A stretch of 64,000 nt of DNA from Roseivivax halotolerans (GTDB lineage: Bacteria > Pseudomonadota > Alphaproteobacteria > Rhodobacterales > Rhodobacteraceae), in NCBI RefSeq assembly GCF_900115815.1, contig NZ_FOXV01000001.1, forward strand, positions 434,001 through 498,000. The letters run 5' to 3'. Below the pieces are notes generated by a model that ran no database searches, was not told the DNA's origin, and was given only the letters and a program-made list of their open reading frames with translations. Position numbers and translations under genes: made by a program. Shown piece by piece: positions 3,616 to 63,868 of this stretch. Position 1 is the stretch's first letter; every line of letters begins with the position of its first letter.

Positions 3616-5489
3616 GCCGTTTTTACGCGTTGAGCCTGTCTCAGCTTGGCAAGAATTAAGCCGAGAGCCGCCGGCGTCACCCCCTCGATTCGGCTTGCCT
3701 GACCCAAGCTGGCTGGACGCGCCGCCGAGAGCTTGGCCTTCAATTCATTCGACAATCCGTCGAGGCTTCCAAAGTTGAAATCTACCGGGATGAGTGCGTC
3801 TTCATCCTTCTTCATAGCCGCAACATCACGTTCCTGCCTTTTTATATAATTCGCATAAAGCGCCTCACGTTCAAGCTGGGCGCGACACTCGGCATCAATG
3901 TCAGATAGCTCAGGCGCGACGTTGATTAGAGTGTCGAAATTGACCTCTGGAAAGGCAAGGAGCTCGAAAGCGTCTCTTTTATGTCCATCTTTTCCTGCAG
4001 CCACACCGTTGTCCCTCAACTCAGACGGCCGCAGAGAATGGGTCTTCAGGCGCGATGTGGCACTCGCGAGGCGTCTCGACTTGTCCTCGAAAACCTCACG
4101 CCGCTCTCTACCGACCAAACCCCATTCTACGCCTTTCGGCGTCAGGCGCTGGTCCGCATTGTCGGCACGGAGGAACAGCCTGAACTCTGCGCGCGACGTA
4201 AACATGCGGTAAGGCTCCATCACACCGCGTGACGTCAAATCATCAATCATCACACCGATATAGCTATCGGTGCGCGAGAAGGTGACATGCGGTTCCGCAC
4301 GCGACGTCCGGGCAGCATTCAGACCGGCAACCAGACCTTGAGCGGCGGCCTCTTCGTACCCGGTTGTTCCGTTGATCTGCCCAGCGAGAAAGAGACCGGG
4401 AACATCCTTCACAGCCAAAGAAAGGGTCAAGGCCCGTGGATCGACGTAGTCGTATTCAATTGCATAGCCTGGCTGCAGAATTTCAGCACTCTCAAGACCC
4501 ACGATGCTATGAATGTAATCAGCCTGGATATCTGCGGGCAACGAGGTCGAAATTCCGTTGGGATAGACCGTGGTGTCATTCAGACATTCCGGCTCAAGGA
4601 AGATCTGGTGCGAGTCCTTCTCGGGAAAACGAACAACTTTGTCCTCGATCGACGGGCAGTATCGCGGGCCGACACCGTCAATATGTCCGCCATACATCGC
4701 CGATTTGTTCAGGTTGGCCCGGATGATCTCGTGCGTTTTTCTGTTGGTATGCGTGATGCCACAAGCGATCTGCCTCGCCTTCGGTTTTTGCGAAAGGAAC
4801 GAAAACATTACCGGCTCATCATCGCCCGGCTGCTGTTCGAGCCTGTCCCAATCGATCGTTGCTCCGTTCAACCGAGGCGGGGTACCCGTCTTGAGACGAC
4901 CGAGAGGGAGTTCGAAGCCGTCCATTCGTTCAGCAAGTTTAGTGCTGGCCTGATCGCCCATCCTGCCAGCACTGTAGGATACATCGCCAATATGCACAGT
5001 GCCGCGAAGGAAGGTGCCAGTCGTCAATACAACTGAACCCGACCGCAGAATACGCCCATCGGCTAATTCCACACCACACACGGCTCCATTCTCTACGACA
5101 AGGTCGACGACCTCCGCGAAGATAAGATCGAGATCCGGCTGCTTCGCGAGTTCGGATTTCATGTATGTACGGTAGAGCGCCCGGTCCGCTTGGGCGCGCG
5201 GACCCTGAACGGCCGGCCCCTTGCGGCGGTTCAGGAGACGGAATTGGATTCCGGCGTTGTCCGCCACGCGAGCCATCACACCATCGAGCGCGTCTATCTC
5301 ACGGACGAGATGTCCCTTACCCAGACCACCGATCGCAGGATTGCAAGACATCACCCCGATGTCGTTTTCCCGCATCGTAATCAAAAGAGTGTGCGCGCCA
5401 GCCCGTGCAGACGCATGCGCTGCTTCCGCACCTGCATGACCCGCGCCGATGACTATCACATCCGCATCTCGATGTTTCACGTGAAACAC
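3612..5489 (-). CDS. mnmG: tRNA uridine-5-carboxymethylaminomethyl modification enzyme MnmG
   Basis: 625 aa, the full family length. The FAD-binding motif [21 protein letters not shown] is near residue 11 and the MnmG signature [19 protein letters not shown] follows. With MnmE it installs cmnm5U at the wobble position of certain tRNAs; mnmE lies 2 bases upstream in the same operon. The first six codons encode MFHVKH and coincide with a perfect parS palindrome at 5473-5488, so the start region is fixed by two functions. Neighbours rsmG, parA and parB follow in the order typical of alphaproteobacterial origin regions. Confidence 0.97.
5473..5488. other. parS site (perfect), first codons of mnmG
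   Basis: TGTTTCACGTGAAACA again, here starting at the second base of the mnmG start codon. Read in frame it encodes the opening residues MFHVKH. The mRNA start region is therefore also palindromic and could fold. Confidence 0.9.
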
Positions 5490-61527: not shown

Positions 61528-62361
61528 ATGCCGAAAGGTGCCTCGGGCAGCAATGCTGCGCCGGTCATTATCAAACGCAAGAAGGTGGTCGCCGGCGGTG
61601 GCCACCATGGCGGTGCCTGGAAGGTCGCCTACGCCGATTTCGTCACGGCGATGATGGCATTTTTCATGCTGATGTGGCTTCTGAACGCCACGACTGAAAA
61701 ACAGCGCAAGGGGCTCGCGGATTACTTCGCGCCCACGATCTCGATCAGCCGCGTTTCGGGCGGTGGCTCGGGCACCATGCAGGGCGAGTCCGTTTTCGCG
61801 CAGGATGCGCTGCCGCAGAACGGAACGGGCGCGACCAGCTTCATGCCCGAATCCCGGATAAGCCGTGACGATGTCTCGCAGGATGCAGGCCAAGACGCCG
61901 AGATGGACGCGACGCTCGCCGATATAGAACGGGTCTTTCTCGAACGCGTGGTCGAGAGCGCGAATGGCAATGCCCTGATGGCGCATCTGGCGACCCGCGT
62001 AACCGACGAAGGCCTCGTGCTTACCCTTTCGGACCTGCCCGACGCGCCCCTCTTCACCGGATTGGCCGAGCCCACTGCCACCGTCGAAACCCTGCTGACA
62101 CTGATGGGCGAGCTTGCCGGTCTAGCCGACAATGACCTCGCCATCGCCGCGCATGTTCGCCGCGTGCCGATCGTTGTAGCGAAGGATCCCGTGTGGGACG
62201 AAACCGAAGGTCGCGTGCGGGTCGCACGAGAAATATTGATCTCATCGGGGCTATCCACGCGCCGTGTGCAGCGGGTCGTTGCCCATGCGGATAGCAAGGC
62301 TGACGTGACCGCACCGACCCATGCCCGCAACAACCGGCTTGAGATCATCTTCCTGCGATAG
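61528..62361 (+). CDS. motB: Flagellar motor stator protein MotB
   Basis: 277 aa. The N-terminal GGGHHGGAWKVAYADFVTAMMAFFMLMWLL holds the single membrane helix with the proton-binding aspartate (YADFVTAM). The C-terminal part ends in the peptidoglycan-binding OmpA-like pattern RVVAHADSKADVTAPTHARNNRLEIIFL. It would anchor the stator to the wall. A GCCGATAA string at 61463-61470 resembles a sigma-28 -10 element, without a good -35. motA is not in the window. Confidence 0.88.
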   Translation: MPKGASGSNAAPVIIKRKKVVAGGGHHGGAWKVAYADFVTAMMAFFMLMWLLNATTEKQRKGLADYFAPTISISRVSGGGSGTMQGESVFAQDALPQNGTGATSFMPESRISRDDVSQDAGQDAEMDATLADIERVFLERVVESANGNALMAHLATRVTDEGLVLTLSDLPDAPLFTGLAEPTATVETLLTLMGELAGLADNDLAIAAHVRRVPIVVAKDPVWDETEGRVRVAREILISSGLSTRRVQRVVAHADSKADVTAPTHARNNRLEIIFLR

Positions 62362-62455: not shown

Positions 62456-63868
62456 ATGACGATTTCCTCTTCACTCAACGCCGGTGTCGCCGGACTTGCC
62501 GCCAATGCCAGTCAGCTTGGCACGATCTCCGACAACATCGCGAATTCCGAGACCTTCGGTTACAAGCAGGCCAAGACCGACTTCCATTCCATCGTTATGT
62601 CGAGTGCGGGCGGCGGCTACACAGCCGGCGGCGTGCGGACCTCGACCTCCTATGAGATCGATCAAAACGGCTCGCTTGTCACCACGTCGAACGCAACGGA
62701 CCTTGCCGTACGCGGCCGGGGCTTCCTGCCTGTCGCGGAAAGCAGTGATGTCCAGGCGGGCAATGGCGACCCGCAGATGCTGTTGACGACGACGGGCTCG
62801 TTCACGACCGACGAGAACGGTTATCTCGTTACCAGCACGGGCTTGATGCTTCTGGGCTGGCCTGCGAACCCGGACGGGACGATCGGCACGTACCCGCGCG
62901 ATACATCGGACGGGCTCGAGCCGGTGCAGATCAACGTCAACCAGTTCTCCGGAGAGCCGACAACGCGGATCACGCTCGGCCTGAACTTGCCGGCGACAGA
63001 AACCTTGGCAACCGCCTCTGGCGATGCGCTGACGCTGTCCGTGGAATATTACGACAATCTCGGCGTGTCAGAGAACATCGAGGTGACCTTCACGCCGACC
63101 ATTCCGGCATCGGGCGCGTCCAATACCTGGAACATGGTGATCGAGGACAGCGCCAATCCCGGCACGATCATCGGTGAATACGAGATGACCTTCGACGACT
63201 CGCGGTCGAGCGGCGGGACATTGGCCTCCGTGACGACGATCTCGGGCGGTGCGTACGATCCCGCGACCGGATCGATGACGGTCAATGTCGTCGGTGGCCC
63301 GATAGAGATCACCGTCGGTGAAATCGGCGCAAGCAACGGCATCACCCAACTCTCCGATAGTTTCGCGCCCCTCAATATCTCGAAGGACGGCTCCCCTGTC
63401 GGAAACATGACCTCGGTCGAGATCGATGAAAACGGCATGGTCCATGCCTATTTCGACACCGGTATCACGCGAACGATCTATCAGGTGCCGCTCGTCGATG
63501 TACCGAACCCCAACGGTCTCACGCCGCTCGACAATCAGGTCTACGCACCGTCCTTCGAAAGCGGCAGTTTTTTCCTTTGGGATGCGGCGGACGGGCCGAC
63601 CGGTGACATAGTCGCCTTCGCCCGGGAGGAATCCACGACCGATGTCGCCGCGGAGCTGACCCAGCTGATCCAGACGCAGCGGGCATATTCGTCCAACGCG
63701 AAGGTCATCCAGACGGTCGCATTATCGCGGGAATTAGCAACCGATTTCCCGGTTGAGATTTGGCTTTGCGTATCGGCGAGATCGCGGTTGATAGACTTTA
63801 GCGTCTGCAGCGCCACCATGGCGCCGTTATTCGTCAGAATGCTAGACATGAGTATTTATCCTCATTGA
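62456..63868 (+). CDS. flgE: Flagellar hook protein FlgE with C-terminus replaced at a junction
   Basis: Up to about 63718 the frame encodes a normal hook protein: SSSLNAGVAGLAANASQLGTISDNIANSETFGYKQ at the N-terminus, and AELTQLIQTQRAYSSNAKVIQTV near the C-terminus. The family should then end within about a dozen residues (a helix such as DEMLQETTNIKR). Instead the frame runs on for about 49 codons of sequence that is the reverse complement of a flagellin gene start. The native C-terminal helix, which packs against the N-terminus in the hook, is therefore missing. The product is probably impaired. Confidence 0.85.
   Translation: MTISSSLNAGVAGLAANASQLGTISDNIANSETFGYKQAKTDFHSIVMSSAGGGYTAGGVRTSTSYEIDQNGSLVTTSNATDLAVRGRGFLPVAESSDVQAGNGDPQMLLTTTGSFTTDENGYLVTSTGLMLLGWPANPDGTIGTYPRDTSDGLEPVQINVNQFSGEPTTRITLGLNLPATETLATASGDALTLSVEYYDNLGVSENIEVTFTPTIPASGASNTWNMVIEDSANPGTIIGEYEMTFDDSRSSGGTLASVTTISGGAYDPATGSMTVNVVGGPIEITVGEIGASNGITQLSDSFAPLNISKDGSPVGNMTSVEIDENGMVHAYFDTGITRTIYQVPLVDVPNPNGLTPLDNQVYAPSFESGSFFLWDAADGPTGDIVAFAREESTTDVAAELTQLIQTQRAYSSNAKVIQTVALSRELATDFPVEIWLCVSARSRLIDFSVCSATMAPLFVRMLDMSIYPH
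63541..63849 (-). pseudogene. fliC: Flagellin N-terminal fragment
   Basis: From the ATG at 63849 (GAGGA upstream) the frame encodes SSILTNNGAMVALQTLKSINRDLADTQSQISTGK and then SVANSRDNATVW, the conserved flagellin N-terminus, as far as about codon 47. From about 63708 leftward the frame is antisense to flgE and has no flagellin character, and it ends at 63541. Most of the flagellin gene is therefore absent from this place. The switch falls at the same bases where flgE loses its own C-terminus. Confidence 0.85.
63709..63720. other. Rearrangement junction between flgE and the flagellin gene
   Basis: The 12 bases CCAGACGGTCGC fit both genes: read forward they continue the flgE codons for Q-T-V, read backward they continue the flagellin codons A-T-V-W. 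Each gene is intact up to this block and foreign beyond it, which marks short shared sequence as the likely joining point. Confidence 0.75.

Follow-up and report, generated by a model that had tools for sequence, protein, structure and literature searches.

A flgE–fliC deletion joint shared by a non-monophyletic set of Rhodobacterales genomes

Introduction

In Roseivivax halotolerans, a reading frame that begins as the hook gene flgE runs on into the antisense strand of the flagellin gene fliC, which raises the question of what joined the two genes, and whether it did so at these bases only once. The locus lies in a 64,000-nucleotide stretch of DNA that was analysed as a whole (the window; positions 434001-498000 of contig C32 of genome G000), from a 3.77-Mb assembly of 45 contigs that is 99.8% complete. 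A preliminary description of the window had reported the fusion and offered a deletion between convergent genes, an inversion or an assembly misjoin as its origin. Losses of flagella are usually scored as presence or absence. For the fla1 flagellar cluster of Rhodobacterales, Tomasch et al. 2025 (PMC12363192) describe sporadic, independent losses, in 7/50, 8/35 and 3/50 genomes of three clades, against a background of strictly vertical inheritance.

Results

The fusion at the window was delimited by profile matches and by comparison with relatives. The forward frame matched the FlgE domains, with the Flg_bbr_C match ending at profile position 36 of 46, while the opposite frame matched Flagellin_N over the start of its 139 positions only, at 25.1 bits against a curated cut-off of 26.6, a score that is expected of a stub. 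The last flgE codon, V421, occupies 63716-63718 and the last fliC codon 63720-63718, and the joint therefore falls within the three bases given in Table 1. To the right of 63718 the DNA reads as antisense fliC, running from codon 44 back to codon 1 and ending with the flagellin ATG at 63849. The fusion is real, as had been described. The flgE remnant (flgE') shares 71-79% amino acid identity with the first 20 of the 80 relatives listed.

Table 1 Features at the fusion (window coordinates)
Feature	Position	Strand	Description
motB	61528..62361	+	intact; left neighbour surviving the deletion; Pfam MotB_plug 2.5e-19
flgE'	62456..63718	+	codons 1-421 of ~433; frame open; last ~12 codons gone
deletion joint	63718..63720	.	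flgE codon 421 / antisense fliC codon 44; 2-3 bp ambiguity
fliC stub	63718..63849	-	flagellin codons 1-44 counted from ATG; Flagellin_N positions 1-45
chimeric ORF	62456..63868	+	470 aa; flgE' plus tail read from antisense fliC
reverse chimeric ORF	63541..63849	-	fliC stub plus antisense flgE; 102 aa in R. halotolerans

The order motB-flgE at the window is that of intact relatives, and just beyond its right edge lie fliK and flgD, followed by ubiB, ubiE, mutM and dnaA. Overall, motB-flgE on the left and fliC-fliK-flgD on the right, beside ubiB/dnaA, make up the remnant of a fla1-type cluster in fla1 order, the gene order of P. inhibens (PMC12363192, Table 1) serving as reference. Pfam matches support the names flgE, fliC, motB, flgK, flgL (by Flagellin_C), flgI, motA, flhA, fliK, flgD, flgN, flgJ-like, ubiB (ABC1), ubiE, mutM, dnaA and ech. 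The names acsF and hemA (with matches to broader families only), puhE, and cycA (with no Pfam match) are ones that we assume; on such names, the region from 36000 to 61000, directly to the left of the flagellar scar, is presumably a photosynthesis gene cluster. The genes acsF and hemA also adjoin motB in two congeners, G004 and G007.

Intact relatives carry motB-flgE-flgK-flgL-flgI, with flhA further along in several of them; the intact congeners G001 and G007 additionally show antisense fliC, flgD and ubiB thereafter, whereas fused genomes have the order motB-flgE'-fliC'-flgD. In these two congeners flgE and fliC are convergent, at a distance of 20.2 kb in G007 and 19.3 kb in G001. Convergent fliC on the same contig as flgE was found in at least 15 of the 30 named relatives searched (elsewhere or not found in the others), with spans between about 20 kb, in Thalassococcus, and 33 kb, in Lentibacter. 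The preliminary description had proposed a search for the missing 3' parts. In the whole R. halotolerans genome, no Flagellin_N match (E <= 0.001) was obtained except at the scar, the FlgE/F/G C-terminal model gave a single match, also at the scar, and FlhA gave none. Based on the convergent intact layout and on the 3' parts not being found in this genome, the scar is a deletion of a fla1-type cluster, a region extending from the flgE 3' end across the body of fliC and spanning about 19-20 kb in the intact congeners. Inversion is ruled out by the same absence. A misjoin would give an identical picture in any one genome, but the fusion is interior to a 555-kb contig (C32, 555,392 bp) and other, independent assemblies show the same joint, among them that of G004, on a 3.79-Mb contig, and the one-contig assemblies G173, G301 and G400; with the missing parts not found either, a misjoin or an inversion is so improbable as to be negligible. 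Hook and filament genes are both broken, as the preliminary description had held, although it had missed the loss of the whole cluster that lies behind this damage.

Loss has gone further in R. halotolerans, in which FlgN and FlgJ of the congener G002 had no match in the stretch, though they matched G004, and the fliK frame starts about 260 bp after the fliC start. Between flgJ and fliK of G004 (L116:7951-9900) there is a 436-aa ORF without a Pfam match, in a stretch that does not align with G007.

The joint was then found in other genomes. A 700-bp DNA query matched G004 straight across it (81% over 545 bp), and of 394 family genomes from 393 genera, 13 matched a joint-spanning 86-aa peptide over its length (residues 1-84, 85 or 86), R. 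halotolerans among them. It was also present in six of 80 named flgE loci, namely those of Sulfitobacter sp. 2-538A (L044), Marinibacterium sp. HXMU1420-2 (L051), Rhodobacteraceae MSM9 (L061), Rhodobacteraceae N326-Z (L064), Silicimonas sp. MASabin.3 (L079) and Silicimonas sp. SS_bin_34 (L082). Three of these (L044, L061 and L079) were new, while L051, L064 and L082 were counted as the same genomes as G421, G172 and G190, giving, with G004, 17 fused genomes in total. Partial matches with flgK after flgE were dropped (G130, G240 and G359 from the peptide search; L008, L015 and L045 from the named loci, the first two corresponding to G130 and G359), as was L095, a 49% partial match with no fliC match. 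Among plasmids, 118 records matched and none covered at least 80% of the query.

All 17 joints coincide within 2-3 bp, with substitutions just to the right widening that of G421 by a few bases, and all 17 carry the flgE T of codon 421. None of the 14 fused genomes of the G series, to which the FlhA counts apply (L044, L061 and L079, known as contigs only, stand outside them), has a fla1-type FlhA. FlhA is missing altogether from 11, and G139, G421 and G136 have one of another type: measured against the fla1 FlhA of Thalassococcus halodurans, its identity is 34-39%, and that of five fla1-type copies 63-68%. The same scar is present in at least 17 Rhodobacterales genomes, which do not form one clade, a recurrence across genera that had gone unnoticed in the single-genome view of the preliminary description. 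Since the whole chimera is present in other genomes, its origin by chance is excluded. The chimeric ORF probably has no selected product, as its tail length and stops vary among genomes; the reverse chimeric ORF of G004 meets a stop right after the joint.

Two trees bear on the independence of these events. In a flgE protein tree of 119 rows, from which L163 (G301) was left out as too short owing to a frameshift, placing the 16 fused rows takes 15 changes, of which starred branches force 10. In a tree of 29 rows built from four flanking genes outside the flagellar set, the 13 fused genomes need nine changes, seven of them forced, and form one clade in 0% of 200 bootstrap trees. This second tree covers the stretches in which the four genes were found, thus omitting the fused L044, L079, G173 and G421 and seven of the 23 chosen non-fused stretches (L231-L236 and L246), and G068, which has a fliC match and no FlhA, entered it as non-fused. 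Fused and intact genomes are sisters at 100/100 in four cases: G004 with G007, MSM9 with Seohaeicola, G400 with G019 and G139 with G026. Within the window genus, where only two of nine genomes have a fla1-type FlhA, fused G004 is thus sister to intact G007 and fused R. halotolerans lies outside both. If loss is irreversible, this pattern of fused and intact sisters means separate events at one joint, as a microhomology hotspot would produce, and such multiple, tree-separated losses agree with the vertical inheritance and sporadic loss of fla1 described previously (PMC12363192). That G007 reacquired the cluster from an outside source was considered and is unsupported: its flgK-flgL-flgI genes group with T. 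halodurans, as does its flgE, more deeply, and the tree of the former gives no foreign origin. The identical loss thus seems to have been repeated across genera whose relatives still keep flagellar genes, and we hold the fusion, the deletion and the recurrence with high confidence.

The preliminary description had placed a shared 12-bp block at the joint. Some match does exist there, but its length was overstated: in 31 intact relatives the uninterrupted match is 0-8 bp with a median of 5, or 2-8 bp when L052, whose sole flagellin match is of a different kind, is set aside. We scored all position pairs between 216 nt of the flgE 3' end and the first 180 nt of fliC, read antisense. Averaged over 27 intact genomes, the joint has the highest 12-nt identity of all these pairs (8.5/12, rank 1 of 34,645); some of the 27 are without the convergent single-contig layout, and with only the 17 that have it the joint again ranks first. 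When the whole of flgE is used it ranks second of 229,264. The joint thus lies inside sequence common to both ends, and its rank across intact genomes implies that it sits on a repeat held in place by conserved codons. The T in CAGACGG[T]C at the joint comes from flgE. A fliC form carrying that T, which would encode Thr and lengthen the repeat, was found in none of 394 genomes with a pattern that covers only about half of fliC genes (Ala form in 14/27 and Thr form in 0/27 intact fliC).

Single genomes give a different picture. In the intact congeners G007 and G001 the joint pair scores 6, the best score at most tested offsets being higher, up to 17 and 18, and the rank of the joint within flgE x fliC over the 27 genomes has a median of 208 by exact match and 96 with wobble. 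The joint is hence not the best shared sequence of the genome concerned, as G007, G001 and most of the 27 intact relatives, which here stand in for the pre-deletion sequences of the fused lineages, hold many better pairs. A long perfect repeat at the joint is ruled out by the 0-8 bp matches and by the low scores in G007 and G001. Seohaeicola, the sister of fused MSM9, has AALW in its fliC and ranks the joint at 5,451 or 930; judging from that sister sequence, homology at the joint was probably poor in MSM9 as well. Some other conserved pairs, scored on 11, 17 or 28 genomes, match equally well or better (flgE-ubiB, motB-ubiB, flgI-ubiB, motB-flgD and one other flgE-fliC pair), and none of these is used in the few other scars read. 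Furthermore, 17 of 17 crossovers fall on the same side of the mismatch, a uniformity that exceeds what plain microhomology repair predicts. Given the short uninterrupted matches, the longer repeats and poor ranks in single genomes and the other conserved pairs, homology is probably involved but insufficient, and explains the precision of the joint only in part. A single old event could likewise have used this repeat.

The remnants retain signs of coding constraint. Between R. halotolerans and G004, flgE' differs with a dN of 0.09 and a dS of 1.19, and 25 of 32 differences in the fliC stub fall at third positions of the fliC frame, so that most of the divergence of both remnants arose under constraint; between genera, third positions are near saturation. 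Over its length flgE' is stop-free in 16 of 17 genomes and carries one frameshift in G301. Across 139 conserved flgE columns there is a slight excess of changes in fused (16) relative to intact (102) rows (Mann-Whitney p=0.002), which, together with the frameshift, fits a loss of function following the deletion. The remnants overall fit deletions that are young relative to the genera, with some use of the stubs being possible. Codons 281-421 of flgE are unusually diverged in G007 (L119), with 77-81% identity to the fused congeners, which share 97% and 90% identity with one another there; hemA and ubiE rows, being out of frame, were left out of this comparison.

Other scars were found in the genus and family. 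In G002, G006, G008 and G003 (L256, L257, L258 and L259, respectively), one clade (97/99) of the window genus, motB is cut near codon 30, after KVA, and the stub meets fliC at its start codon or just beyond it. Pairwise differences among these motB stubs fall at third positions in 71 of 115 cases, and the stubs still look coding-constrained. The same genomes retain flgN, a flgJ-like gene, fliK and flgD beside ubiB (L256:9639-13475 and equivalents); flgN and flgD are stop-free, and three of the four genomes are without any FlhA. In G005 the distance between cycA and ubiB is about 1 kb, and none of the query genes has a match within it. A comparison by eye of peptide matches and FlhA over the 394 genomes gave 26 that match the chimera peptide yet have no FlhA: 10 are fused, G068 and G354 match on the fliC side only, and 14 keep flgE without the joint. 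Scars were read in five of these 14, the other nine including incomplete assemblies. G147 has a flgK/ubiB joint and G249 a flgI/flgD joint, while in G102, G290 and G381 fliK-flgD follows about 10 kb after flgI, flgK being also truncated in G102. L069 and L081 have flagellar deletions whose joints differ from the one in the window, at flgK159/ubiB and flgI61/flgD45.

Discussion

Our best reading of these data is a deletion hotspot that has been used repeatedly, at an imperfect repeat imposed by codons, and we hold it with barely more confidence than doubt. We propose that the conserved codons for VIQTVD in flgE and for DN[A/S]AVW in antisense fliC would impose a short imperfect direct repeat, about CCAGACSGYSGM, across species. 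Annealing of strands, or a template switch, from the flgE copy to that in fliC would then delete everything in between, and the flgE T in every joint would fit a primer strand derived from flgE whose G:T mismatch was tolerated. The non-motile state might subsequently be fixed where swimming gives no payoff.

The main rival, which we consider unlikely though by no means far-fetched, is a single old deletion allele, formed once and either kept as a non-motile morph within many species or passed between them, in which flgE' and the fliC stub are renewed again and again, as far as the joint, by homologous recombination with intact alleles. One formation would account for the joint and flgE T shared by 17 of 17 genomes, and for poor microhomology in some lineages; the remnants are also little decayed and resemble the genes of their own species. 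Over flgE codons 281-350 the fused congeners are 97% identical, with only 80-81% to G007, which is placed between them, and near the joint (flgE nt 1180-1221) mean identity is 0.755 among fused and 0.730 among intact genomes. However, elsewhere the fused-fused and intact-intact values differ by up to 0.026 and in the last flgE segment they are 0.836 and 0.829, and no foreign or shared patch stands out near the joint. The fused rows do not form one flgE clade, nor was a clear donor patch found beside the joint, a search of weak power at such third-position saturation. The fliC codon at the joint is Ala or Ser among fused genomes, even between the sisters G190 and G301, and the strictly vertical inheritance of fla1 according to Tomasch et al. 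(PMC12363192) and the lack of a foreign origin in the G007 flgK-flgL-flgI tree count against this rival. A polymorphism would also have to be maintained across genera. In its fullest form, which we regard as doubtful, the ancient allele would be a balanced non-motile morph in many Rhodobacterales, its flanks refreshed by recombination and possibly by gene transfer agents, such that one joint survives across genera while its surroundings look young.

Two further explanations are improbable. In a site-specific or programmed excision, an enzyme would cut and rejoin at sites in flgE and fliC as a one-way motility switch, which would suit both the precision of all 17 joints and their independence. 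The sites have no invariant core, though: wobble bases differ from genome to genome, in the fused and the intact alike, and such variation should defeat an enzyme that recognises a specific sequence. The portions of the P. inhibens gene table (PMC12363192) drawn on here contain no recombinase. Alternatively, FlgE(1-421) or FliC(1-44) might be useful without a flagellum, so that only deletions here survive, an account to which we likewise give little credence. The stop-free flgE' frames, the third-position bias in the fliC stub and a similar bias in the motB stubs of a sister clade with another deletion speak for it. Against it stand the varying tails and stops, the frameshift in G301 and the slight relaxation of conserved columns, and selection on a product alone would not pin the joint to a few bases.

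We return to the hotspot reading for comparison with known systems. The study of Tomasch et al. concerns the same cluster, its vertical inheritance and scattered independent losses; it gives presence/absence counts, and breakpoints, remnants or a shared joint are not described in the parts of it considered here (PMC12363192). The joint was not found described in the literature searched, including the parts consulted of PMC12363192 and PMC4149021. Here the scars themselves are readable and show the same deletion arising repeatedly, at identical bases, in distinct lineages; they offer a testable case of the extent to which mutation bias, and not only selection, steers parallel gene loss. Trans-species polymorphism would account for one joint in many species; we know of no such case for a bacterial gene-cluster deletion. 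Were the old allele the true explanation, a deletion allele would have outlived species. In classical work on lacI in E. coli, large deletions recurred at one pair of short imperfect repeats. The likeness lies in repeated large deletions at a single such pair, whereas the pair described here owes its existence to conserved codons in two unrelated genes, lies about 20 kb apart and has been used across genera rather than within one strain.
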